DNA of 64,000 nt. Source: a virus. The position numbers and the translations under genes are program-made. The stretch's first letter is position 1, and every line of letters begins with the position of its first letter. Of the stretch, positions 133 to 14,759 are shown piece after piece. The notes beneath the pieces were generated by a model. That model was not told the DNA's origin and made no database searches. It was given only the letters and a program-made list of their open reading frames with translations. Where the stretch lies: IMG/VR virus record IMGVR_UViG_3300028416_000014, positions 1-64,000 of that record; one strand, given 5' to 3'.

Positions 133-1761
133 TTACTGAATTTTGTGTAAACCATCTACAAAGATTTTACCGTAGAATTCACCACGTAACATCTTCTTAG
201 CGTAACGAGTCATAACACCTTTTCTTGGAGTAAATGATTTAGGGTCGTACACTAATGGAGTCATAATCAATGGAATATACGGAGCGTAAACAGCACCAGT
301 TTCAAGGAATTGGTTTCCTCTGTATCCCATTAAGATTACATTCTCTTTCATGTATGGGTTTTTGTAAACTTGGAATCTATTAGATAGTGAACCAACCTTA
401 GTAACACCAAATGCGAATTGTGCATCACCATTATCAGCTGATGAAGCATATCCAGGAATTGATTCAATAACAGTCGCAACTTCAGGAGATACAACTAAGA
501 AGTTAGCACCACCACGAAGTGTTTTTTGGTGAATCTTATTAGATACACTTGCAATTACAGTACCCAATGTCTGGAACCATGCACCCTGATTGAAAGATGA
601 TGCTTGTGCTGCTGTTGTTGAATAATCGGCGAATGCCGAGCCATTCCATTCACGACCCACTTGCGTTGACCAAAACCCAGTGGTCTTAGCGTCTTGAATT
701 AACATATCCAAAATTTCCAAATCAATTTCTTGTGAAATATATTCAGATAACATTGATGTTAATTCTGCTTCAGCGTCAATTGAATGGTAAGCGTTAAGGT
801 CTTGTGCGAATTCAGGCGTCCACTGCGCTTTCAACTTACGAGTTTTAGCAACAATTGCTTCTGATTTCATTTCTACGTTCAACTCTGGAATTTCCAAATC
901 AGTTTCAGGACTTGCATTAAATCCAGCTTTTGTTTGTTCGAAATCACCACGTGATATATCAGTAGGTTGTTTGTGATACTTAACAGTAATACTACCGAAT
1001 GCTGCATCTTTAGCAACAAATACGATGTTTCCACCACTTAAAGTAGTAAATTGTGGGAATTGGTCATCAACACCAGTCAATCTAAACCCTCTGATACCTT
1101 TTGTATCAAATCCATCAATTGATGCAGTTTGGATTGTTAACTTAGAAATAACACCACTTGCGATATCAGCTGCATTCGACTGGGAGAATGTAGTGTCATA
1201 GTTATAATCAGCAACACCAAGTGATGCTGTTGTATAATTGTTAGTACCAACTGCGCCAGCAAGTGTTTGTGCAGCACTTACCTGTTCGTTTATAGAGTAT
1301 CCGAAGCGACCGGCACCATACAAACCACCAGATGGGTCTGATGTAGTATCAGTTACACCAAATACAGAATCCGCTTGTGAATCTTTTCCACTACCTGTAG
1401 TAAATCCAGGCTGACCCGTTCCATATTTGAAATCAAGATAAAATACAAGTCCTGATGGTAAGTTCATAGGCTGTACACTTACAAAATCCTTTGCGGCGAT
1501 TTCAGAAAAAATACGTCTTACTAATGGTAGAGCTACACCAGCCCATTCTTCAGAATTAGATACTACACCATTAACAGATGCCTCTTTTACCAATTGTTTT
1601 GCTTGGTTTTCCAATAGGGTTGCAACACCATTTCTGTCTAACTCAGATGATAGCCCTTCCAATAATCCAGTTTTTTCCCATTTTGCAACTAAACCATTTG
1701 TTACTTCTCTTAGTTTAGATGTATGAGATGAACCTTCGTTTAAAATGTTTCTTATGTTCAT
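133..1761 (-). CDS. 23: Major capsid protein (T4 gp23-like)
   Basis: This is the capsid shell protein: 542 residues, against 521 for T4 gp23. The call rests on overall resemblance to the T4-type major capsid family and on position immediately after the protease and scaffold genes. The N-terminus resembles a prohead-protease prosequence. MNIRNILNE at residues 1-9 ends in I-L-N-E, and L-V-K-E at 57-60 is followed by Ala, close to where T4 gp23 is cut (after residue 65). A Shine-Dalgarno-like AAGGATAAGTA precedes the ATG and a strong terminator follows the stop, as expected for a highly expressed late gene. The family call is firm. The cleavage position is inferred. Confidence 0.93.
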   Translation of the reverse strand: MNIRNILNEGSSHTSKLREVTNGLVAKWEKTGLLEGLSSELDRNGVATLLENQAKQLVKEASVNGVVSNSEEWAGVALPLVRRIFSEIAAKDFVSVQPMNLPSGLVFYLDFKYGTGQPGFTTGSGKDSQADSVFGVTDTTSDPSGGLYGAGRFGYSINEQVSAAQTLAGAVGTNNYTTASLGVADYNYDTTFSQSNAADIASGVISKLTIQTASIDGFDTKGIRGFRLTGVDDQFPQFTTLSGGNIVFVAKDAAFGSITVKYHKQPTDISRGDFEQTKAGFNASPETDLEIPELNVEMKSEAIVAKTRKLKAQWTPEFAQDLNAYHSIDAEAELTSMLSEYISQEIDLEILDMLIQDAKTTGFWSTQVGREWNGSAFADYSTTAAQASSFNQGAWFQTLGTVIASVSNKIHQKTLRGGANFLVVSPEVATVIESIPGYASSADNGDAQFAFGVTKVGSLSNRFQVYKNPYMKENVILMGYRGNQFLETGAVYAPYIPLIMTPLVYDPKSFTPRKGVMTRYAKKMLRGEFYGKIFVDGLHKIQ

Positions 1762-1793: not shown

Positions 1794-2687
1794 TTATTTT
1801 AATCCTGCTAACTTTTTCCATCTTGAAGATAAATCATTTGTTTCTGTTATGATTTGCTTCTTAGGAGCAGAACTTTTAATACTTTTTGAAGCGTAACCTT
1901 CTCTTACAACTACTTTTTTGTATTTAGCTACATTAAGATTTTCAGCCAATGTAGTAAATACTAATTTCACTTCTCTTACAGATGAAGTTCTATCAAAGTT
2001 TTCAAGTACTTTAACTTTTTGATTTTCGTTCAAGTCATAAGTTCTGAATAATTTGTTAGTATATAGAAGTTTAGCGTTTAAAAGATTTACTTCATTGATA
2101 GTAGCTCTTAAACTTTCAATAGTTTTATAAGCTTCGTCCAATTCATCTTCATGACCCATTTCTTCTGAATCATCTTCCATTTCTTCTTCCATTTCTTCTT
2201 CATGTGCCATTTCTCTTAGAGTTCTGATTACCTCATCCAAATCAAGTTCTTCATCATCATCCATTTCTTCATGCATACCTTCTTCTTTTTCTTCTTCATG
2301 TGCATCTTCCATTTCAAGTTCACGAATAATTGATTCTAACTCTAAATCATCTTCCATTTCTTCTTCCATTTCTTCTTCGTGGTAACCTTCACCGATTTCC
2401 AATTCTCTTAGGATTTCTTCTAAATCTTCGTCGTCATCCATTTCATCAGCCATCGCTAAAGTTTCATCACCCGGCTCTTCCATTTCTTCTTCGTGGTAAC
2501 CTTCTTCTTTTTCATGACCCATTTCTTCCATCTCATCATCCATTTCTTCAGCTAATTTAGCAGAAATCATAGATTGAAGTTTTGGTGTGAACGCTTCTTC
2601 TAAAGCCAATTTCGCATTTGCTAATGCAGTTTCTTTTACAGCCTTCGCATCTGCGATTGCTTCTGATAACAAGTCTCTTCTTGCCAT
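1794..2687 (-). CDS. 22: Prohead core scaffold (T4 gp22-like)
   Basis: Major scaffolding protein of the prohead core, 297 residues (T4 gp22 is 269). The middle third is extremely acidic and repetitive, with several near-copies of a YHEEEMEE or HEEEMEEEMEDD block alternating with short helices such as ELESIIRELE. The C-terminal part carries the recognisable INEVNLLNAKLLYTNKL segment and the final RWKKLAGLK typical of this family. Several I/L-x-E sites fit its expected destruction by the head protease. An excellent ribosome binding site (AAGGAG, 6 bases before ATG) precedes it. It lies directly upstream of the capsid gene, as in T4. Confidence 0.92.
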   Translation of the reverse strand: MARRDLLSEAIADAKAVKETALANAKLALEEAFTPKLQSMISAKLAEEMDDEMEEMGHEKEEGYHEEEMEEPGDETLAMADEMDDDEDLEEILRELEIGEGYHEEEMEEEMEDDLELESIIRELEMEDAHEEEKEEGMHEEMDDDEELDLDEVIRTLREMAHEEEMEEEMEDDSEEMGHEDELDEAYKTIESLRATINEVNLLNAKLLYTNKLFRTYDLNENQKVKVLENFDRTSSVREVKLVFTTLAENLNVAKYKKVVVREGYASKSIKSSAPKKQIITETNDLSSRWKKLAGLK

Positions 2688-2827: not shown

Positions 2828-3067
2828 TCATTTTTTAAATTTAGTCAATCTAATTTGATTTTGAATTTGTTTTCTACGTATTTCAGATGGCTTGATATGG
2901 TATCGTCTATCTTTTAATTCTTGCAACTTACCGGAGTCTTTTAACTTACGCTTCCAAAACTTTATTGCTAATTCCAAATTACCATCTACAACTTTTACTG
3001 CATTGGGATTACCCCATACAATCATATCTTGTTTTGTAACCTTTTTATAAAACTTTCTTTCTGACAT
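2828..3067 (-). CDS. rpsU: Ribosomal protein bS21-like
   Basis: A small basic protein of 79 residues resembling ribosomal protein bS21 of the small subunit. The match is the segment from about residue 30: a stretch of the form NLELAIKFWKRKLKDSG, then LKDRRYHIKPSEIRRKQ and a lysine-rich end. This parallels the bS21 pattern of an 'A-L-R-R-F-K' helix, 'R-R-R-E-F-Y-x-K-P' and a basic helix. The first 25 residues are phage-specific. Phage-encoded bS21 is known from marine phages. In flavobacterial ribosomes bS21 helps hide the anti-Shine-Dalgarno sequence. This gene has no Shine-Dalgarno itself, whereas its late neighbours do. Role inferred: it modifies initiation on host ribosomes. Confidence 0.82.
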   Translation of the reverse strand: MSERKFYKKVTKQDMIVWGNPNAVKVVDGNLELAIKFWKRKLKDSGKLQELKDRRYHIKPSEIRRKQIQNQIRLTKFKK

Positions 3068-3470: not shown

Positions 3471-5894
3471 TTAGTTTACGTAGTATGTCAATTCGTACTT
3501 ACCACTTGGCATACCATATAATGAAATCTGTAATGCTTTTCGCTGTGGTTTACCATTTTTTAATAATCCGATAGTAGCATCTGTATTTTTTTCTGTGCCT
3601 GGTCTAATTCTACCATGTCTACCACCTAGTCCTATTTGTGATTGCCAATCATCTTCATCAATTTCAAATCCACGCTTTTCAATCATTTTTCTGGCATAAT
3701 TTACAGCTTCGGTTGCACTATCGAAATAAGTATCTTTGGCTTCGTTTACTGATTCAACTTTTATTTTGAGTAGGTCTGTTAGTTTTGTGGATTCGTTTGT
3801 TGATTCTAACTTACCACCCATTTTATTATACATCTTTTTCAATCGAGCTAAGTGTTCTTCATCTCGTGCATTAGTGACCATACCTTGTTTCTTAATTTTA
3901 TCTTGAAACATTTTTATAGCATCTTCCAATTTTTTGAGTTCATTGGACTCGTTTACTGATTCTCTGAATAATTTTTTGTAGTATTTTAAAACTTCTTCTT
4001 TATCATCAAAAGAGCCACCCCTAGGAACTAAACTAATACCGGTATCTAAAATTTTTGCGATTGATTTTTTATCACTATATACAAAATAAGCATCAGCACC
4101 TCTATCAAAATCACCACCAGCGATTTTCTTTCCTTTATATGATACGGTAACAGAACCATCTTTTGATACAAATCTAAAGTTACCATCTTTTACATCCCAA
4201 CCTTCGTTTACTGATTCTTTAAGTTCTGCATTGCTAGCTATCAAAGAGTTCATTTTTAAAACACCTTTAATATCTGAATCTTTCAATGAACCTTTACCAT
4301 ATGCCTTAGCGTATTTATCACTCATAAAGATTATTTTAGTAGTACTTTTAAGTCGTGATACTACTGCAAAAAGTGCAGTTGTATTATATTTGTTAGCTGT
4401 CGTACCATATAAATAAATCAATGGATTTTTAAATGCTTTGGAATATTTTTTAAGTTGCGCATCAAATTTATCTGGTTCTATTCTAATTGGATTGGGATAT
4501 AATTTAATTTCATCATCGGCTATATTTGCCCAATCAATCTTTTTATCTAATGATGCTTTTATCTTAGAAGATGATACTGCTTCGTTTACTGATTTAACTT
4601 TTTTTTTGAGTATATCAGTTAGTTTTGTGGATTCGTTTGTTGATTCACCTACGAATTTCTTAGCGTTTTCTTTATCTTCTTTATCAACACCAGTTACTTT
4701 GTAAGTTTTACCATCTACTTCAAATGAATCTTCACCACTTGCGATTGCTTTTGCTCTTGCAGCACCAAACTCATTACCTTCTTCCAATTCGTTGATTTCG
4801 TAGTACTTTCCTAATACTTCACCAATTTCATCGTATGCTGATTCCAATCTTTGTTGTAGTGTAGAAACTTCTTTAAGTGTTTTTTCAAATACTTTAAAAG
4901 ATTCATTCATCCTTTTCATATGTCTACCTACAGTAACACCATCGAACCAATCTTGCGTTTCATCAATAGTCATTTTTTGTGCTACTTCCACCACGTTTTT
5001 GATTGATTGGTATACCTCTTTTAAATCTCGATTTCTGTAGATAGATTCACTATACCGTTTGTATGATTTAACTGCTTCTAAAAACGCTTGTTTTTGTTCT
5101 AAGTTAAGTCCAGATTCTCGTTGTATTTCCTCACCCTTTTCATTTACAAATGAGCGAGCGTATGGGTTAGAGTATACTTGACCTATTTTCATATTCCCAT
5201 TGAAGTATGCTTGGGATTTAAACTCTTTTAATAGTTCTATAGCGTCATCCATTGTGGATTCATTTACTGATTTATATTCTGTAGTTAATCTTTTTTTATG
5301 TTTCTTAGCCATTTTCACTGCGGCTTTTAACGCACTTTTAAAATCAGTAGTAGATTCAAATGCTATTTGGTCGTCATAAGTGTCAATACTAACATAATAC
5401 CCATCATCATCACCAAACCCAATATATAACATCATTTCATCACCACCCGCAAATAGAAAATCGCTAGTACCCGAATCGTATCTAGTCTGAGTAGTTTCGG
5501 AGTCTACTCTTACACCCGTTGCTCGTTCTAGAGCTTTTCTAACCATCTCTTGCTCTTTATCTGTTAAAGCTTCATCCGATGATTCGTTAAGTTTGGCTTC
5601 ATTTACTGATTCTCCATAGAGTTGCTTCCATGTTTTTGCAGCACCTTTTACAGGTTCAACGATATAATGGTTAGTTCCTCTCTTACCCTTACCTGAATAT
5701 TTTACTACTTTGGCTAATATAGATTTACCTTGTTCATCTTCGGCTCGAATTATACTACCAATTTTTAGTTTTTCGTCAGCTGGTACTTTTATGGTCATTG
5801 GGCCATCATATTTTTCGTTTACTGATTCTTTAAGTTCACCTCTTAGTCGTTTGATTTGTTCATTCATCAATTCTCTATTCTTTTTGATACTCAT
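3471..5894 (-). CDS. Modular head protein with repeated SVNE sites (possible packaged polyprotein)
   Basis: 807 residues, located between protease gene 21 and scaffold gene 22. Blocks of about 70-230 residues are separated by S-V-N-E motifs at residues 24-27, 96-99, 209-212, 435-438, 561-564, 646-649 and 715-718, almost always preceded by E or K and followed by A, S, G or K. F-V-N-E at 249-252 and S-T-N-E at 418-421 and 698-701 are related. The segments just before residues 438 and 718 are near duplicates (TNESTKLTD, then a lysine-rich stretch). T4 head protease cuts after I/L-x-E, so these look like cleavage sites. The product would be packaged and cut into about eight small proteins. No block matches a family I know. 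AGGA precedes the start. Cleavage is inferred. Confidence 0.7.
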   Translation of the reverse strand: MSIKKNRELMNEQIKRLRGELKESVNEKYDGPMTIKVPADEKLKIGSIIRAEDEQGKSILAKVVKYSGKGKRGTNHYIVEPVKGAAKTWKQLYGESVNEAKLNESSDEALTDKEQEMVRKALERATGVRVDSETTQTRYDSGTSDFLFAGGDEMMLYIGFGDDDGYYVSIDTYDDQIAFESTTDFKSALKAAVKMAKKHKKRLTTEYKSVNESTMDDAIELLKEFKSQAYFNGNMKIGQVYSNPYARSFVNEKGEEIQRESGLNLEQKQAFLEAVKSYKRYSESIYRNRDLKEVYQSIKNVVEVAQKMTIDETQDWFDGVTVGRHMKRMNESFKVFEKTLKEVSTLQQRLESAYDEIGEVLGKYYEINELEEGNEFGAARAKAIASGEDSFEVDGKTYKVTGVDKEDKENAKKFVGESTNESTKLTDILKKKVKSVNEAVSSSKIKASLDKKIDWANIADDEIKLYPNPIRIEPDKFDAQLKKYSKAFKNPLIYLYGTTANKYNTTALFAVVSRLKSTTKIIFMSDKYAKAYGKGSLKDSDIKGVLKMNSLIASNAELKESVNEGWDVKDGNFRFVSKDGSVTVSYKGKKIAGGDFDRGADAYFVYSDKKSIAKILDTGISLVPRGGSFDDKEEVLKYYKKLFRESVNESNELKKLEDAIKMFQDKIKKQGMVTNARDEEHLARLKKMYNKMGGKLESTNESTKLTDLLKIKVESVNEAKDTYFDSATEAVNYARKMIEKRGFEIDEDDWQSQIGLGGRHGRIRPGTEKNTDATIGLLKNGKPQRKALQISLYGMPSGKYELTYYVN

Positions 5895-5912: not shown

Positions 5913-6527
5913 TTATAAACAACAAACGCCATCAATCTCACAAATGATGTCACGTATTATATTATTGATTTTATTATATGATTTTAATTTATTAGATGTT
6001 ATTGATTCGTTTATTGGTCTCATAAATGCACCATGTGTAGATGGATTAGATACAAAATCCCAACAAACTAAATCAAAGTCATCTTCTACTACAACAGTGC
6101 CACCCTTTGATTCTTTTACTGAACCCATACCACGTGATGATATACCAACTGTACAGCCAGCTTCCAATAGTTCTTTTAGGATGTTTCCGGCTGGAGTTTT
6201 TAGAATTTCAACTTTACCAACCACATCGTTACCATCCCACCATACATCTCTAACTATATGTGATGTATTTTTTAATTCCACCACCGATGAATCCGGATGG
6301 TCTAATTCACCATAAGCACGATTTTCTTTGATTTCTCTATCTTTGTATTTAGATACTTCACGCATTAGGATTTCTTTTGGATATACCCTACCATTTTGGT
6401 TTTTAGCTTCAGCCCTTTGTAAGACACCCTCTACTATTAACCTACCACCATTAGTTGCAATAGCCTCATTGATTTGTGCTTTTGTTAAGCTGAAATTTTG
6501 TGTATCTACTAATAGTCTTTTCATCAT
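5913..6527 (-). CDS. 21: Prohead core protease (T4 gp21-like)
   Basis: Serine protease that matures the prohead by cutting scaffold, capsid and internal proteins: 204 residues (T4 gp21 is 212). Recognisable segments are GRVYPKEIL at 46-54, ELDHPD at 74-79 with the likely catalytic His77, and VGISSRGMGSV at 127-137 with the likely nucleophile Ser130 or Ser131, followed by an acidic VVEDDFDLV. It carries its own I-N-E-A at 19-22 and I-N-E-S at 172-175, which fit self-cleavage at both ends. AAGGA lies just before ATGATG. It sits between the small core gene and the modular head protein, its presumed substrate. Confidence 0.93.
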   Translation of the reverse strand: MMKRLLVDTQNFSLTKAQINEAIATNGGRLIVEGVLQRAEAKNQNGRVYPKEILMREVSKYKDREIKENRAYGELDHPDSSVVELKNTSHIVRDVWWDGNDVVGKVEILKTPAGNILKELLEAGCTVGISSRGMGSVKESKGGTVVVEDDFDLVCWDFVSNPSTHGAFMRPINESITSNKLKSYNKINNIIRDIICEIDGVCCL

Positions 6528-6534
6528 TTCCTTG

Positions 6535-7041
6535 TTATGAGCTTAGTTCTTTTATTTTTCGTGCAACTCTAACCATTCTTTCAGATATTTTCTGAAATCT
6601 AGCTTGTGTTGATTTCCAATATTGTCCGTTGTGTACACCTGCTTCTTGTTTTAATTTTGAATTTTGGTTTACAATACGTTCCATTTTATACATCATCGAA
6701 TTTATCTTTTTGATTGAATCGTTTATTTTTTGATAATCCTTTCTTGAATCATCTTTTTTGTATTCTTTATAAGATATTTCGTTGATTAATGATTCCATCT
6801 TAGTTTCAAAAGCTTCCATTGCTTGTGTATGCTTATTGGATTTTTTGGATTTTTTGTAACCCAACACTTCAATTGTGTCATCATCCAAATCATCTTCATC
6901 GTTAGATTTTGAAAATGCCATTGGCGTTCTTGGTGGGCCTTCACCACCATCTAAATTAGATGTAACATTCGCTTCATCCAATTCTTCTTCTTCATATTGT
7001 TGAAATTTATCGTTAAGTTCTTTTATTAAACTTTTCATCAT
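6535..7041 (-). CDS. Small prohead core protein, position of T4 genes 67/68
   Basis: 168 residues. It lies between the portal and protease genes, where T4 has core genes 67 and 68. The N-terminal helix MMKSLIKELNDKFQQY is followed by an acidic patch and L-D-E-A at about residues 21-24, and a second candidate protease site L-I-N-E occurs near residue 90. The C-terminal half is a basic, coiled-coil-like helix region. The first codons overlap the end of the preceding gene by 4 bases, suggesting coupled translation. The function as a core or internal protein is inferred from position and cleavage-like sites, not from homology. Confidence 0.65.
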   Translation of the reverse strand: MMKSLIKELNDKFQQYEEEELDEANVTSNLDGGEGPPRTPMAFSKSNDEDDLDDDTIEVLGYKKSKKSNKHTQAMEAFETKMESLINEISYKEYKKDDSRKDYQKINDSIKKINSMMYKMERIVNQNSKLKQEAGVHNGQYWKSTQARFQKISERMVRVARKIKELSS

Positions 7042-7928: not shown

Positions 7929-9761
7929 CTAAATATCAGATTCCAATATATTTTTTTCATCTAACATATCAATTTCATCTTTATTATCAGTAGGTTTTAA
8001 AGATTCTGTTATAATTTTCTTAGTTTTAAGCTTCATCTTCATAGAATCTAACATAGCATTAGTAGATTCACTATTTATAGATTTATTTCCCAATGGGTCA
8101 CGACCAAATGGTGATTTATCAGTTGCGTAATTACCACCCTCTTTTGGTCTACCAGCACCTTCCCAACCACCATCTGGAACTTCATTTTCAAACTGTGGTT
8201 TTTCACTATCACCGCCACTTTCTGTTTGTTGGATTGTTGCAAGGTCGTGTGGTGTTCCGAATGATTCACCTGTAACCGATGGGTCATTACCCTCATTCTG
8301 TATTTGCTCTTGCCTGAACCCTAATTTCAAATCATTGATAACGCCATATTGTTCTTTTTGCCACTCTTGCTGAGACATATTGAATATATTTTCATATATC
8401 CATTTTTGAGATATCAATTTACTATCTTTCAAATCATTAGCTAATCTAATTTTTTCAGACCATAAATTTGCTTTTTCTTGGTCATATATTACCGATGGGT
8501 TTGTTAATTCTATGTTGAAATTAACCAAATCGGCATCAGTATATCCTTGAGAGTATAAATGTATTATTGCTATTTTAGTTAGTTCTGAAAGTGCAATCTT
8601 TTGGATTCGTTCAACCGAGCGAGCGAACCTAATATCTTGTTGAGCTAACGTAGCTTTACCCGATACACCCTCATCATATCCGATAAACGATTTTGGCACT
8701 TTAAGACCTGCTAACATTCTGTTTTTTAAGTATTCAACATCATCAATACCACCAAATTCCATCCCACTTAGAGAATCAATTTCAGTTCCACTCTGACCAC
8801 CCCTAATTGGCAAGTAATAATCTTCCAACATATTTTGAAGATTGAACTTTAGATTGTAGTCTCCAGTGGTTTCATCTATATATGGTGTTTTTTTCATTTG
8901 GTCTATGATATTACGCATATATGTATCCACTTCACCCGGTGGTATATTACCAATATCAATTTTAAAGATTCGCTTTTCAGGCGCCCTCATAATGCGATGT
9001 ATCATCATCGCATCTTCCATCAAGGTTAACTGCTTCCAAGTTTTCCGTGCTCCTTCTAATAAAGAGCGGCCGTAGGGTAGGAAATTACTATCAGATATTA
9101 ATCTGAAGTGGGCCACTTGGAATGATTCTAAGTATTTTGTATTACTTTTAACTGAATGATGGTTTGTATTGTGTTGTTCTACTTCAAATCTAACTGAATA
9201 TGGGTTATCCAAATCGTAACCTTCTTCTCTTATAGTTTCATATACTGAGAGTGGTTGTACATTTACAACACCCAATTCATCATCGATATCCAAATATAAA
9301 TAGTAGTCACCATATTTGACCATACCACGAATCCATGCCCATAGGTTGAATTCGATATTCAAAACATCATAGAATAAATTATTTAAAGTTTTCTTTATTT
9401 TTTCATTTGATGAATTTATTCTAAGAACATCATTCATATCATTTTTTAAAGTACATTCATCAGAATATATATCCAAAACAGATGATATTATGGAATCCTT
9501 ATCCATAGCTTCATAGTCTGTATAAAGTTCTAATTTGTTAGAATGATAATTAAAACGGTCATTGTAAGTTTGCCAATTCTTCTTTGAGTTAGAGCCGTGT
9601 AATCTACCGTATCTATCATAGTAAGATGAGCTTTCTGAATTACCAGAGCTCTGAAGTCTTGATGAGTCAACTACTTTGATTTTGTTTTTGCCGAGCCGCC
9701 TTACAACAACTTGTGTTGAAAACAATCGTTGAAGTCTACTGAATAATGATTTATCTGCCAT
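7929..9761 (-). CDS. 20: Portal vertex protein (T4 gp20-like)
   Basis: Forms the dodecameric portal through which DNA enters and leaves the head: 610 residues (T4 gp20 is 524). The central region is typical of the family: SSVLDIYSDECT near residue 90, IDSLSGMEFGGIDDVEYLKN near 330, and the KVPKSFIGYDEG, GKATLAQQDIRFAR region. The C-terminal roughly 100 residues are rich in Gly, Glu and Asn and look disordered, which accounts for the extra length. It lies directly after the terminase, whereas in T4 sheath and tube genes come between. Confidence 0.93.
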   Translation of the reverse strand: MADKSLFSRLQRLFSTQVVVRRLGKNKIKVVDSSRLQSSGNSESSSYYDRYGRLHGSNSKKNWQTYNDRFNYHSNKLELYTDYEAMDKDSIISSVLDIYSDECTLKNDMNDVLRINSSNEKIKKTLNNLFYDVLNIEFNLWAWIRGMVKYGDYYLYLDIDDELGVVNVQPLSVYETIREEGYDLDNPYSVRFEVEQHNTNHHSVKSNTKYLESFQVAHFRLISDSNFLPYGRSLLEGARKTWKQLTLMEDAMMIHRIMRAPEKRIFKIDIGNIPPGEVDTYMRNIIDQMKKTPYIDETTGDYNLKFNLQNMLEDYYLPIRGGQSGTEIDSLSGMEFGGIDDVEYLKNRMLAGLKVPKSFIGYDEGVSGKATLAQQDIRFARSVERIQKIALSELTKIAIIHLYSQGYTDADLVNFNIELTNPSVIYDQEKANLWSEKIRLANDLKDSKLISQKWIYENIFNMSQQEWQKEQYGVINDLKLGFRQEQIQNEGNDPSVTGESFGTPHDLATIQQTESGGDSEKPQFENEVPDGGWEGAGRPKEGGNYATDKSPFGRDPLGNKSINSESTNAMLDSMKMKLKTKKIITESLKPTDNKDEIDMLDEKNILESDI

Positions 9762-9815: not shown

Positions 9816-11387
9816 TTACAATAACCACCGAATATCTTCATTGTTTTTACCAACTTTCATATTCCACATATCGGTAGCTTTTTTAGATGTAGTTTTGAAT
9901 ACACCTGAATTTTTAGTTGTTAGAGATAGTGCCCTTTTATTTAGCTCAATACCCTGCTGTCTTAGTTTTAAGGCGGTATCTCTAACCCATAGCGATGTTG
10001 AGAATGATATTACCAAATCATCATTATACCCACGCTGAGCTTCTGCTCTACTACCATTCCAAATAAATACAAATAATTCATCAATCAGCCGTTTTGAACG
10101 TATAATTGGTACACGCTCCCTCATATAAGTATCTAATTTTGATATTACCAGCGGCCTAGTCCTACTTGTCATTGAAAATCCAGGTACCATTTGTGATTTA
10201 TCTTTTAAATCATATGCCTTTTGTAAATGTATATTTTCATCCACATATCCAAATTCCTTATATGAATAGTATAAGTTTTTATAGTTTCTATCTATTGCTT
10301 CTTGAATTACAGCCCAGCCAATATTAGCGTTTTCAATCACTAACAATGCATCATTCCATTCAGTAGCAACATTTACTAACAGATTACCATATTGTTTAGT
10401 TTCTATCTTACCTTTATACTCAGCCACTTGTTCTACCGTTTCAACATCAATTACATGGAATGCTGAATAATCTGCGCCATCACCACGAGCAACATCCGCA
10501 ACAACAATATAATTTTTTGTGTAATTTGGCTGTGACCATAACCAATAATTCCCATCAAAACCACGTTTTTCTATTGGAGTTTGTATGTGGGTATCTTCAA
10601 ACCATTTTAGCAATTCACCATCAACAACTGTGTAACCAGATGATATGAAATCGCAATCACATTCTTGTGCTGCCATCTTTTCACCTAATAGTTTTGTTTG
10701 TTGCTTTCTCCACTTTTTATCTCTTTCTGGATGAACAGTCCAATGTAGTTTAATAGGATTCCATTCATCACCCTCTTCACCTTTCAACCAAGTTTTATGA
10801 AAGAAATTACCAACACCGTTTGGAGTTGATAACACAATTGCTTTACCACCGGTTGATAGTGTAGATTGTGATGATGCCCATATTTCATCAATACCTTTGA
10901 TAAATGCCGCTTCATCTATAATTAACATTGATAGTGCTTCAGAACGACCAGCGTCACCACTTGCTGATGTTGCTTTAATTTGTGAACCATTACCAAGTCT
11001 AAGTGAAAGTTTGTTATCTTCTATTGTATTTCCACGCAACCACGATGGTAAGTTTTCATGCATATATCTAACTTTAGTAACTAAGTTTTTAGCTATTTCT
11101 TGTTTGGTTGCAATTACTAAAATATTTTTATCTTCGTGGAATAACATCATCCACAATGAATATCCAGCTGATAATGTTGATATACCCAATTGTCTTGATT
11201 TTAATATAACATTATATTGGTATTCATTGAATTGACCTAATGCGTTTTCTTGGAAATCATATAGATTGAATAAAATTTTGCCACGTTTTGGATGTTGGAT
11301 GTAACAATATTTTTTAAAGAAGTATATTGGGTCTTTTGCACATTTTATATACTCTTCTCGTATTAATTCTTTTATACTCTTAGCCAT
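9816..11387 (-). CDS. 17: Terminase large subunit (T4 gp17-like)
   Basis: DNA packaging motor and nuclease. I start it at the ATG at 11387 (MAKSIKELIREEY), giving 523 residues. A longer frame begins upstream but would overlap the previous gene, which ends at 11389. The ATPase domain has a Walker A-like KSRQLGIS at 63-70 and Walker B LSMLIIDEAA at 152-161, followed by the coupling motif LSTPNG. The C-terminal RNase H-like nuclease begins near residue 300 with VVADVARGDGADYSAF, whose first Asp is a likely metal ligand. It is shorter than T4 gp17 (610). No small terminase gene was recognised nearby. Confidence 0.95.
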   Translation of the reverse strand: MAKSIKELIREEYIKCAKDPIYFFKKYCYIQHPKRGKILFNLYDFQENALGQFNEYQYNVILKSRQLGISTLSAGYSLWMMLFHEDKNILVIATKQEIAKNLVTKVRYMHENLPSWLRGNTIEDNKLSLRLGNGSQIKATSASGDAGRSEALSMLIIDEAAFIKGIDEIWASSQSTLSTGGKAIVLSTPNGVGNFFHKTWLKGEEGDEWNPIKLHWTVHPERDKKWRKQQTKLLGEKMAAQECDCDFISSGYTVVDGELLKWFEDTHIQTPIEKRGFDGNYWLWSQPNYTKNYIVVADVARGDGADYSAFHVIDVETVEQVAEYKGKIETKQYGNLLVNVATEWNDALLVIENANIGWAVIQEAIDRNYKNLYYSYKEFGYVDENIHLQKAYDLKDKSQMVPGFSMTSRTRPLVISKLDTYMRERVPIIRSKRLIDELFVFIWNGSRAEAQRGYNDDLVISFSTSLWVRDTALKLRQQGIELNKRALSLTTKNSGVFKTTSKKATDMWNMKVGKNNEDIRWLL

Positions 11388-12010: not shown

Positions 12011-12297
12011 TAAAATTTCTTTAGTAATGATATCTTTAAATTAGTATTACCTTTAATGATACGGTGATATTCACCCTTTTTAATATATATAACATCACTC
12101 TTATTTAGTATAAATGGTAGTTCATTATCACGTTGGAATTTCCAACCATTACCCTCTAGTATTGTAACTTCCCTATCTTCTTTATCTCTATGCCATACCA
12201 ATTCTGAAGAATCCGTATCTACTGTAAATTCTCTAATGTAAGTGTTATTACCCTTACTTATTTCGTTATATGGGTTACCAGAATCTACCACCACCAC
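12010..12297 (-). CDS. Small cupin-like protein
   Basis: 95 residues with a single cupin-like fold signature: VWHRDKEDREVTILEG (metal-ligand-like His and Glu spacing) followed by NKSDVIYIKKGEYHRIIKG, resembling the second cupin motif G-x5-P-x-G-x2-H with the Pro replaced. Similar small proteins occur near tail and head genes of marine T4-like phages, and their role is not known to me. There is no ATG. Translation must start at one of the GTG codons overlapping the end of the preceding gene (23-base overlap), so the exact start is uncertain. Confidence 0.6.
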   Translation of the reverse strand: MVVVDSGNPYNEISKGNNTYIREFTVDTDSSELVWHRDKEDREVTILEGNGWKFQRDNELPFILNKSDVIYIKKGEYHRIIKGNTNLKISLLKKF

Positions 12298-12796
12298 TTA
12301 GCCCTAATGATTTAGCGTATCTTGGCAATGCACATGACCAATACCCAGCTTTTGTTTTATCCTTTTTATTAGGACAATCGTGTCTATCGGAAAATGCTTT
12401 TCTTGCTTTTGGGTCTTTAAGTTTTACTGCGAGTTTACCACCACCACCTTTAGCACCAAATGATACTTTTATAACATTACCTTTTTTGTTTTTAACATAC
12501 ACATAGAACTTTTTAGAACCACCGCGTTTAGGTTTATTCAGTTCTACTTTTTTACTCTGATACTCAGCTTCAGCTAGTATTGGAAAATCTAACAATACAG
12601 GTTCACCTTTATATCTACCAACGTTACCAATATCAGAATCTAAAAAGTATTTCAAATTATCACTAACAGATTCCAATTTAAGTTTTCTTAAGTCATTGAA
12701 ATATTGAAAAAACTTTACTGAACCATATCTGTATGGATTCTTATGTAGTGGTACGTTATTGTCCACATTGTATATTATACCTTCATTTAGTTTCAT
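12275..12796 (-). CDS. Basic phage module protein, possible packaged protein
   Basis: 173 residues. The N-terminus reads M-K-L-N-E-G, an L-x-E-G site like the head-protease sites of the neighbours. From about residue 78 comes a conserved phage module (YQSKKVELNKPKRGGSKKFY, a Gly- and Lys-rich centre, KARKAFSDRHDCPNKKDK, then YWSCALPRYAKSLGL) with two cysteines and a strongly basic charge. I recognise the module from marine T4-like phages but know no tested function. The charge and the N-terminal site suggest a DNA-associated protein delivered inside the head. That is inference. Confidence 0.6.
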   Translation of the reverse strand: MKLNEGIIYNVDNNVPLHKNPYRYGSVKFFQYFNDLRKLKLESVSDNLKYFLDSDIGNVGRYKGEPVLLDFPILAEAEYQSKKVELNKPKRGGSKKFYVYVKNKKGNVIKVSFGAKGGGGKLAVKLKDPKARKAFSDRHDCPNKKDKTKAGYWSCALPRYAKSLGLSGGGRFW

Positions 12797-12803
12797 AGTA
12801 GTA

Positions 12804-14759
12804 TTATATATTTGTTAAATCTGATAGTAATTTCATTAATTTTTTATCGTTCTTTTGTTTAGCCAACTTAGCGATATTCTTTAGGTTTTTCTTATTAAGA
12901 CCCTTACCACTATGCCCAACTAAATCTGAATAACCTTTCATCCATCTATCCCTTTTATAATCAATAGAATCTTTGTGATTGACTTGGATATGTTTTTTGA
13001 TTTGTTTTTGTATAGTATCAATCTTCTCCATTTCCGACCAAGATACTTCGTTTATTGATTTGAAATAATCTTTCCAATAATATTTAAGAAATCTAAAGTT
13101 ATTAAATGATAAACTGGTTGTCCAATCCTCTATACTATAGTCTAACGATGACCCGCCTGAATGGAAGTGAACAAATAAATCTTCCGGCGTATCTTGTTCA
13201 TGATATACTTGAGCAAATCTAAAATCGTTAGTCGTATCTGGATGAATAAAAATAGCGAGTGTAACAATACCATTTTCATAATAAAAAGGCCCATTCTTTT
13301 TTATCCATTTTTCTGGATTCTTAATTGATTTGAATCCCTGTATTTTAGCAAATTTCTGAACCATATTCAATAAATTAGTAGTAGAGTCTACTTCATTTAT
13401 CGATTCACCTAGTGGTTTTAAGTCAGTCATATCACCACTCAATTCATAATCAGCAGTCCAACCTACTTTGTTTAACTGCTTAATAGTTTTTTTAGCAGCA
13501 GCATATGAATCATCATCGAAATCATGTGCATCTAATACATCTTGTACTTCTTGTGGTAGTAGTTCATATTCATCAAAATAATCTATCTTAGGGTCGTATT
13601 TGAACTTAGCTTCATTAATTGATTCATCAAGATAATCTAAGAAATATAGTGCTTGTTTTAATGTTCGTGGATAATTACCAGTTTTTTCTTTAGCCAATTT
13701 AACTATGTACATAATAGCTTCTTTCCTACCTTTACCAGCCTTAACTTTATCTGTTATTGATATAGCTTTATCCAATTTCTGCTTTTCATCAGATGATAAT
13801 TTAATTTCATTTACTGATTCTTTTATACCTTGTTTTTTGATAGCTTTCAATAAGTCATCTGTATCTACATACAAAGTTCCAATAACTTCTGTATCACCAT
13901 CAGGTAGTATTTTTTTAAATGTGGCACTTGTTGCATTTACGTTTGTACCTTTTCCTAAATAATATTGATTTTGACCAATTTCATACTTTTTACCATCCTT
14001 ACCTATTATGTTATGATGTTGTCCATGAACCCACATCTGACCACCTACAAATTGTTTTAATCTCTGCTCAGCACTCTTTGCACTTCCAACTACCGATGGC
14101 ATTATTTTTTTAAGTAAAGATAGATTCATATCTGGCTGTGACATATAAAAGTTTCTATCTGTCCATTCATTTACGGATTCTTTCTTCCAACCACCACCTG
14201 CGGCTTTGTATTTCTTAGCGGCCCATGCATTTGCATATGCAGATGGGTATACATCAAACTTTTTCTTAGCTTGTGATTTATAGTAAGACCACTTTGATGG
14301 ATTTGTAGGTACATTCTTTTCTAACAATGTATTTAACTTTTCCACCAAATTGGGTTTATTTGTTGATTCATGTAAACCCATATCAACCCACATTTTTAAA
14401 ACTTTATAATAATCATCAGGAGTTAAACCTCTATCTTCTCCCCAAGTTGTTTCACTTGTAAGGTCGTACATTTGTTTTGCTAACGCTTTTAAATTCCCCT
14501 CTTTCCAATAAAGTGTTGCTCTACGGTTTCCTCTATCCATCAACCTTAATTCTCTACCTCTTTTATCGTGTGGGTCTGTACTCCATCCAGCTGATGAATT
14601 TACGTTAATACTGAACTGTGGTAATCCATCAACTTTAAAAACTGTAAAATCTGGACCAGTTGCATAGTCCTTTGATTGTCTAGTTATTTTTAAAGTTTCT
14701 GTAATCTGAGATTCTCTTAAACTATCTATATATGATATAGTCCACTCTTTTAAATTCAT
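12804..14759 (-). CDS. Second modular protein with SVNE/SINE sites (possible packaged polyprotein)
   Basis: 651 residues built like the 807-residue protein. S-V-N-E or S-I-N-E motifs stand at residues 195-198, 315-318, 380-383, 453-456 and 568-571, each preceded by E, K or G-E. The N-terminus MNLKEWTISYIDSLRESQITE is an amphipathic helix ending in I-T-E, like a capsid-targeting peptide. The block before residue 195 ends with a basic module (KKKFDVYPSAYANAWAAKKY, then GGGW) common in marine T4-like phages. The last block is lysine-rich and helical. Cleavage at the motifs would give six or seven proteins. A strong AGGAG lies 7 bases before the ATG. Processing and packaging are inferred. Confidence 0.7.
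   Translation of the reverse strand: MNLKEWTISYIDSLRESQITETLKITRQSKDYATGPDFTVFKVDGLPQFSINVNSSAGWSTDPHDKRGRELRLMDRGNRRATLYWKEGNLKALAKQMYDLTSETTWGEDRGLTPDDYYKVLKMWVDMGLHESTNKPNLVEKLNTLLEKNVPTNPSKWSYYKSQAKKKFDVYPSAYANAWAAKKYKAAGGGWKKESVNEWTDRNFYMSQPDMNLSLLKKIMPSVVGSAKSAEQRLKQFVGGQMWVHGQHHNIIGKDGKKYEIGQNQYYLGKGTNVNATSATFKKILPDGDTEVIGTLYVDTDDLLKAIKKQGIKESVNEIKLSSDEKQKLDKAISITDKVKAGKGRKEAIMYIVKLAKEKTGNYPRTLKQALYFLDYLDESINEAKFKYDPKIDYFDEYELLPQEVQDVLDAHDFDDDSYAAAKKTIKQLNKVGWTADYELSGDMTDLKPLGESINEVDSTTNLLNMVQKFAKIQGFKSIKNPEKWIKKNGPFYYENGIVTLAIFIHPDTTNDFRFAQVYHEQDTPEDLFVHFHSGGSSLDYSIEDWTTSLSFNNFRFLKYYWKDYFKSINEVSWSEMEKIDTIQKQIKKHIQVNHKDSIDYKRDRWMKGYSDLVGHSGKGLNKKNLKNIAKLAKQKNDKKLMKLLSDLTNI

Follow-up and report, generated by a model that had tools for sequence, protein, structure and literature searches.

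We propose that the head gene cluster of this marine T4-like phage encodes a head-cargo polyprotein that would be cut by the adjacent S77 protease, packaged and injected, and whose blocks would be exchangeable among relatives; as an overall explanation we give this a probability of about 0.7. The stretch of DNA analysed, hereafter the window, comprises 64,000 bases of a 67,428-base IMG/VR virus fragment, in which genes for the capsid protein Gp23, the S77 protease, a scaffold-like protein, the portal and the terminase lie on the minus strand. The features of this region are as follows:

133..1761, minus strand: major capsid protein Gp23 (Pfam Gp23, E 8e-79), with an LVKE/A site after residue 60
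1794..2687, minus strand: scaffold-like acidic protein, net charge -58, with INE at residue 197
3471..5894, minus strand: putative modular polyprotein ORF of 807 aa with seven SVNE, between protease and scaffold
5913..6527, minus strand: head maturation protease, Peptidase_S77 (Pfam E 5.9e-36), with its own candidate site INE/A after residue 21
6535..7041, minus strand: 168-aa core-type protein with homologues in loci L114 and L116 (blastp)
7929..9761, minus strand: portal-type gene, 610 aa, aligned over its full length with a gene annotated gp20 in phage immuto
12275..12796, minus strand: 173-aa protein, phrog_7595, a single gene in the window
12804..14759, minus strand: second putative modular polyprotein, 651 aa, with five S[VI]NE ending after residues 198, 318, 383, 456 and 571

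The scaffold-like label follows from gene order, between protease and capsid; searches of this protein against Pfam and PHROG returned nothing above chance. The 651-aa ORF, which stands upstream of the terminase in transcription order and some of whose blocks reappear in loci L020, L021, L025 and L031, had been missed by an earlier note on this DNA that described a single such gene. Separator-flanked blocks lie inside the homologues of the 6535..7041 protein in L114 (348 aa) and L116 (208 aa), and the 12275..12796 protein forms the C-terminal block of a fusion in L034 and, judged by eye, in L023. The cluster also holds a gene for ribosomal protein S21 (2828-3067), which adjoins the scaffold gene and keeps this position in several relatives (L006, L007, L029-L031, L141 and others); whether S21 is expressed late or packaged is worth asking.

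The earlier note had placed seven SVNE motifs in the 807-residue protein, each with E or K before it, beside the protease gene. All of this was borne out: the motifs end after residues 27, 99, 212, 438, 564, 649 and 718, every one is preceded by E or K, and the neighbouring gene is the Peptidase_S77 listed above. Composition shuffles of the same protein gave a mean of 0.033 SVNE and a maximum of 2 (20,000 shuffles), against the seven observed, and two STNE occur in addition at residues 418 and 698. The ORFs of at least 50 aa in the window contain 17 S[VIT]NE in all, nine in the 807-aa ORF and five in the 651-aa ORF, with the remaining three spread over three other ORFs. An assembly error is unlikely, because other contigs repeat both proteins: up to residue 491 the 807-aa ORF recurs on another contig at a rounded 100% identity, with a few substitutions visible, and two contigs carry the whole 651-aa ORF at 100%. 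Searches of the whole 807-aa ORF against Pfam and PHROGs gave no match above the curated cut-offs, and Pfam located no peptidase domain within the chain; a match to MnmE_helical (E 0.00036) falls under the cut-off, extends over several blocks and was attributed to chance. Cut at its motifs, the ORF is divided into these pieces:

5814..5894, minus strand: N-terminal piece, residues 1-27, ending KESVNE
5598..5813, minus strand: block of residues 28-99, related in the general comparison to a near-identical copy in L004 alone
5259..5597, minus strand: block of residues 100-212, whose own search found the L004 contig alone
4581..5258, minus strand: block of residues 213-438, in which a conserved helical head-cluster protein is followed by a mini-domain (about 373-416) and then by an internal tag
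4203..4580, minus strand: block of residues 439-564, whose own search found the L004 contig alone
3948..4202, minus strand: block of residues 565-649, with none related in the general comparison
3741..3947, minus strand: block of residues 650-718, with the KKLEDAIKMFQDK module, which occurs in many contexts, and an internal tag
3474..3740, minus strand: block of residues 719-807, a single gene in L023, L025 and L031
4581..4643, minus strand: internal tag and separator, residues 418-438, STNESTKLTDILKKKVKSVNE
3741..3803, minus strand: internal tag and separator, residues 698-718, STNESTKLTDLLKIKVESVNE

The seven sizeable blocks fell into seven different clusters, no two being grouped as alike, and the TNESTKLTD segment is duplicated with 66 of 84 bases identical; the blocks are thus as dissimilar, this duplication apart, as had been claimed. 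Because no relatives were seen for blocks 28-99, 100-212, 439-564 and 565-649 (L004 apart), the case for their independence is the pattern itself.

To compare this architecture among relatives, 179 loci, some of which share a contig, were gathered with the 807-aa and 651-aa proteins, a protease alignment, two recurrent blocks and two named phage regions as queries. In the first 121 loci and the window, 33 of 1919 ORFs contained at least two S[VIT]NE; removal of eight identical or contained copies left 25 modular proteins, and all ORFs of this kind that were found lie on uncultured contigs. Cutting the 25 proteins at their separators gave 119 blocks of at least 30 aa in 59 clusters, 20 of them with several members, the clusters being built by single linkage with a few blocks joined through chaining alone. 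Block order varies among the proteins, and three of the clusters (4, 6 and 8) have different neighbours in different proteins. The KKLEDAIKMFQ block (residues 650-701 in the window) is present in ten of the 25 modular proteins, nine by pattern plus that of L117, beside varied neighbours, and a search with the module of block 650-718 returned 25 loci, some from contigs already in the set. Block shuffling between motifs in related phages, which had been set beforehand as a check, was therefore found. Two recurrent modules (one related to the 650-718 module of the window) and block 719-807 had no match in named phage records, nor did the KRFYQ block in bacterial and archaeal genomes.

The borders of homology lie close to the motif more often than expected by chance. 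With separators masked and at identities of at least 65%, 84 of 180 distinct internal alignment ends lie within 10 aa of a separator (mean 27 and maximum 61 in 1000 rotations), and at identities of at least 30% the count is 131 of 492 against 70 expected and a maximum of 105 in rotations. Over all alignments of up to 95% identity the median distance from end to separator, 48-50 aa, is not smaller than the 42-44 aa of the rotations, because many ends fall inside blocks and the measure leaves out weaker separators. On this evidence, with the same blocks found elsewhere reordered among unrelated neighbours, the motif is a separator, and the comparison of genes shows a modular, shuffled design, with a standard separator, for a putative head-cluster polyprotein.

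These ORFs are found with head genes. Among 82 loci fetched by block sequence, some sharing a contig, 50 have an ORF with at least two separators, and 46 of those 50 also carry a T4-type head gene. The modular ORFs occupy three slots: from the protease to S21 or the scaffold, from a 281-aa gene to the protease, and upstream of the terminase. Over all loci, a head gene lies no more than four ORFs away from 72 of 82 modular ORFs, compared with 1896 of 2714 in the background; the latter proportion is high since the protease served to select many of the loci.

We next consider the separator as a site for that protease. The T4 enzyme, gp21, is described as cleaving after L/I-x-E (PMC9026906). The separators have the form [EK]S[VI]NE, and in 113 of 160 distinct contexts the next residue is A, G or S, compared with a background of 0.20 within these ORFs. 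Capsid genes carry [LI]-[VIL]-x-E in 71 of 74 cases by pattern, and the three that the pattern missed have, by eye, QILNE, QLIKE and QLIKE. Ahead of the protease core, [ILV]NE is present in 68 of 114 ORFs against 0.15 in core stretches of the same length; this count replaced [ILVMF]xE, found in 114 of 114, which was without background and had some matches at the core edge. The LVKE/A and INE/A sites that the earlier note had read in the capsid protein and the protease are both present. V at P3 is absent from the published T4 motif (L/I) and would be an extension of that rule, for which the support here consists of the capsid and protease sites. The ORFs thus carry repeated sites that fit the protease of their own virus, whose specificity is deduced from the T4 rule together with the sites in capsid and protease, and we infer with good support that the head protease cuts at the separators; cutting at the two STNE joints is doubtful. 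For the earlier identification of the motif as a head-protease site, the agreement with the gp21 rule and with the capsid and protease sites stands, and the cutting itself is a probable consequence.

The flanks of recurrent blocks bear on the same point. One widespread block was retrieved with a search of its own, and its closer copies were chosen by pattern to the exclusion of some divergent copies, among them stand-alone ORFs; all 24 distinct flanks of the chosen copies have E at the left edge of the block, and 20 have I or V two residues before it. The KKLEDAI block has [ILV]xE within 14 aa in 19 of 21 distinct left flanks (0.26 in random windows) and S[VI]NE in nine of the 21, so that the exact letters are less well conserved than the cleavage-like pattern; conservation of the motif at this edge, on which the earlier proposal had been made to depend, holds for most flanks in the case of the pattern and for some in the case of the letters.

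Phage polyvalent proteins with 2-15 domains are described in PMC5512222, where the N4 virion RNA polymerase is reported to be packaged unprocessed, and the modular ORFs do combine several unrelated, shuffled domains in one ORF. The proteins could then be packaged or expressed whole, with SVNE as a linker or docking motif, and a Pfam scan of 54 modular ORFs for domains known from polyvalent proteins, such as ArdC-type peptidase, LPD, ParB and ART, gave one weak match, to the polyvalent-associated domain LPD5 (E 0.0096, under the cut-off) in a single ORF. We consider this unlikely: an uncut linker needs neither a fixed E two residues after I or V nor a small residue behind it, and the separator pattern also occurs at the capsid maturation site and in the adjoining protease genes.

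If the chain is cut, the nature of its products is relevant to their fate. Internal blocks have a median length of 75 aa and 104 of 121 are net positive, which makes them like the T4 internal proteins, small and basic (PMC9026906), and unlike the acidic scaffold; the whole 807-aa chain has a net charge of +9 and block 213-438 of -6. Two of the seven sizeable blocks of the window are found elsewhere as single genes. Block 719-807 stands alone in L023 (98 aa, MIKLKELLEGN...), L025 (99 aa, MISLKSLLMEA...) and L031 (a 123-aa ORF), and for the conserved part of block 213-438 there are 16 ORFs that exceed it by no more than 45 residues, one of them at least (L005) being truncated by a contig end. 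In L034 and L032 this conserved part is a 190-aa gene after the protease that starts MKLKSLLNES or MKLKDLLNES and ends MKLKDLIK; in Microcystis phage Mel-JY01 the conserved part is likewise a single gene after the protease. Another Mel-JY01 head-cluster protein (L016:11401-12567), which has the look of an ADP-ribosyltransferase, gave nothing in Pfam, and the assignment was dropped.

The model of block 719-807 shows a compact alpha+beta domain (mean pLDDT 84). No PDB fold matched it at E<=0.001, and a VIA Z of at most 5.3 was uninformative; its best matches among viral models are to a phage protein of 117 aa without characterisation (E 0.0017, TM 0.72) and to one of 1134 aa that bears the name anti-CBASS Acb1 (E 0.03, TM 0.63). 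Both fall short of E 0.001; the second is a hint of a link to defence, from which no conclusion is drawn. Residues 213-430 are modelled mostly as helix with low confidence (mean pLDDT 55). Pfam assigned DUF3008 to five of the 54 modular ORFs and 16 other families to one or two each, 14 of the 16 no better than E 1e-4. Outside this 54-ORF set, L109:4377-6632 combines a DUF3008-like N-terminus (under the Pfam cut-off), an AAA_33/zeta-type kinase domain and two KKLEDAI copies. An ORF of the same make in L118, without S[VIT]NE, contains a 94-aa block (10523-10807) that matches 62 named phage records from many hosts and is a whole gene in both phages checked for length, phiM12 (100 aa) and Milano (94 aa); the neighbours of that gene are mostly hypothetical, and the 1.5-2.5 kb displayed include no annotated head gene.

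These data also bear on whether the chain is a disposable core protein like T4 gp22 or gp67, which would fill the prohead, be chopped and be expelled before DNA entry, its blocks being filler. T4 core proteins are described as cut into several fragments and mostly removed (PMC9026906), block 213-438 holds a conserved helical head-cluster protein, and modular ORFs sit in core-gene slots. The scaffold here is acidic (-58), in contrast to the net positive charge of most internal blocks; the compact model of block 719-807 and the whole-gene counterparts of the L118 block, away from annotated head genes, also argue against filler, and we regard a disposable core as very unlikely for the ORF as a whole. 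Block 213-438 may itself be a core protein rather than cargo, as it includes a conserved helical head-cluster protein that relatives, a number of them, have as a single gene. Of the earlier suggestion that one gene yields about eight internal proteins, the modularity is supported.

At the DNA level, the separator valine is encoded by GTA in all 134 distinct contexts, which come from many loci (background 0.52), serine by TCN in 205 of 209, and asparagine by AAC in 140 of 209 (background 0.38). Single-motif ORFs have GTA in 30 of 39 cases. With GTA invariant, the V-type separators resemble duplicates of a single DNA string more than independent inventions; they would thus also have spread as copied DNA, which fits exchange at the joints, and the number of motifs then overstates the independent evidence of protein-level selection. 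Codons vary elsewhere: Ile separators use ATA 16, ATT 13 and ATC 7 times, those of the 651-aa ORF are also variable, and the six SINE separators of L093 mix TCC, TCT and TCG, ATT and ATC, and AAC and AAT, a variety that points to selection on the protein there. We dropped the notion that GTA is kept to set an out-of-frame stop, since Ile separators have no ATA preference (16/36). The codon bias of V-type joints would be expected if the separators were mainly DNA joints, that is, 12-15 bp sequences promoting recombination between head genes with the protein as a by-product; the codon variation of L093, the 651-aa ORF and the Ile separators speaks against this, and as the principal explanation we give it very little credence. 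A role in recombination and the proposed cargo polyprotein can be true together.

Entry of the polyprotein into the prohead would require a signal. T4 internal proteins have N-terminal targeting propeptides of 10-19 residues, in which Asp at position 10 inhibits processing (PMC9026906). Related single genes carry a tag pattern drawn by eye, M/T-K-L-x-x-L/I-L-K, at their N-terminus, and the window has it at two internal joints; in the window chain a K-L-x-x-L-L-K tag stands directly before a separator (ESTKLTDLLKIKVESVNE, followed by AKDTYF). Matches that include the first residue number 131 (79 N-terminal, 7 C-terminal and 45 internal), a first count that was inflated because the start Met is part of the pattern; recounted without the start Met, 88 of 256 matches to the tag core begin at residues 2-8, where 7 are expected. 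Ten of the 45 internal matches lie within 30 aa of S[VIT]NE. The N-terminus of the 807-aa ORF, MSIKKNRELMNEQIKRLRGELKESVNE, does end in a site but departs from the tag pattern. Most separators lack an adjacent tag, so that tags would not account for the targeting of every released piece. The tag is a candidate capsid-targeting signal.

Taken together, we propose the following for the head-cargo polyprotein. The ORF would encode a chain of small, separately folding and mostly basic proteins, and tags resembling capsid-targeting sequences would bring it into the prohead. There the adjacent S77 (gp21-type) protease would cut after the E of each E/K-S-V/I-N-E separator and free about seven small proteins inside the head, which would stay associated with the DNA and, in the manner of T4 internal proteins, pass into the host at infection. 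Gain, loss and reordering of blocks would follow from the identical protein sequence and nearly identical DNA of all joints. Packaging and injection are suggested more weakly than cutting, by analogy with T4; the roles of the blocks are likewise a matter of analogy, and they may include a defence-like action as for the T-even internal proteins, described as diverse defence proteins whose common feature is the targeting sequence only (PMC3012670).

The closest known counterparts are T4 IPI-IPIII and Alt, with a head cluster that includes an S77 protease, a short N-terminal tag, the L/I-x-E rule and proteins that are small, basic and diverse (PMC9026906, PMC3012670); the present system resembles them in these respects, its tags being tag-like N-termini in many of the ORFs. 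Linkage to S77 and Gp23 is found here as in T4; T4 makes each internal protein from its own gene, whereas here many lie in one ORF, and the standard separator and internal tag copies are features of this system and not of T4 internal proteins. Polyvalent proteins of phages and plasmids are likewise chains of many shuffled domains, which a mobile element carries into the host, and their authors draw the polyprotein analogy; their release is proposed to occur through embedded peptidase domains, or they act whole (PMC5512222), whereas the candidate protease here is the separate head protease and the separator is uniform. In SPN3US and phiKZ, which have multiply cleaved head and ejection proteins, a related protease cuts head proteins after x-x-E, sometimes at several sites, but the accounts in PMC10052503 and PMC5694885 describe extra cuts that remove long propeptides and leave one mature protein per gene. 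Our search of the open-licence literature on head proteases, polyproteins and shuffling found no phage head polyprotein of this kind. RNA virus polyproteins yield several products per ORF through repeated protease sites; the present case differs in being a tailed DNA phage with a structural protease and a block mosaic between relatives. In phage literature the term polyprotein has also been applied to a DNA polymerase fusion of hot-spring viruses (PMC7689252).

Two cultured phages carry proteins of interest. In Flavobacterium phage immuto, a possible laboratory model, a protein encoded upstream of the terminase (L017:4347-6872) is 841 aa long and contains single SVNE and SLNE sites. In Methylophilales phage Melnitz, a multi-domain protein of 462 aa (L187:6736-8124) apparently contains a relative of window block 719-807: in an alignment with relatives, a stretch chosen by eye is 38% identical to L025, a weak match, and blastp of the window block against Melnitz protein 20 gave none.

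More tentatively, and with somewhat less than even confidence, this may be a general cargo-loading system of marine T4-like phages, in which each joint would serve simultaneously as protease site, as a component of a targeting signal and as a place of DNA exchange; any small gene could be spliced in frame into a head polyprotein and delivered with the genome, so that former early or host-takeover genes would yield pre-packaged proteins active from the very start of infection, possibly against host defences. If the proposal is correct, a tailed phage uses the polyprotein strategy for packaged proteins, with a natural plug-in joint, and such phages would have a new way to load helper proteins into their heads. 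Pieces between ES[VI]NE in head clusters would then give a sequence rule for discovering packaged proteins in uncultured phages, these pieces would be candidates for anti-defence and takeover functions, and the joint would offer a design principle for capsid cargo loading.
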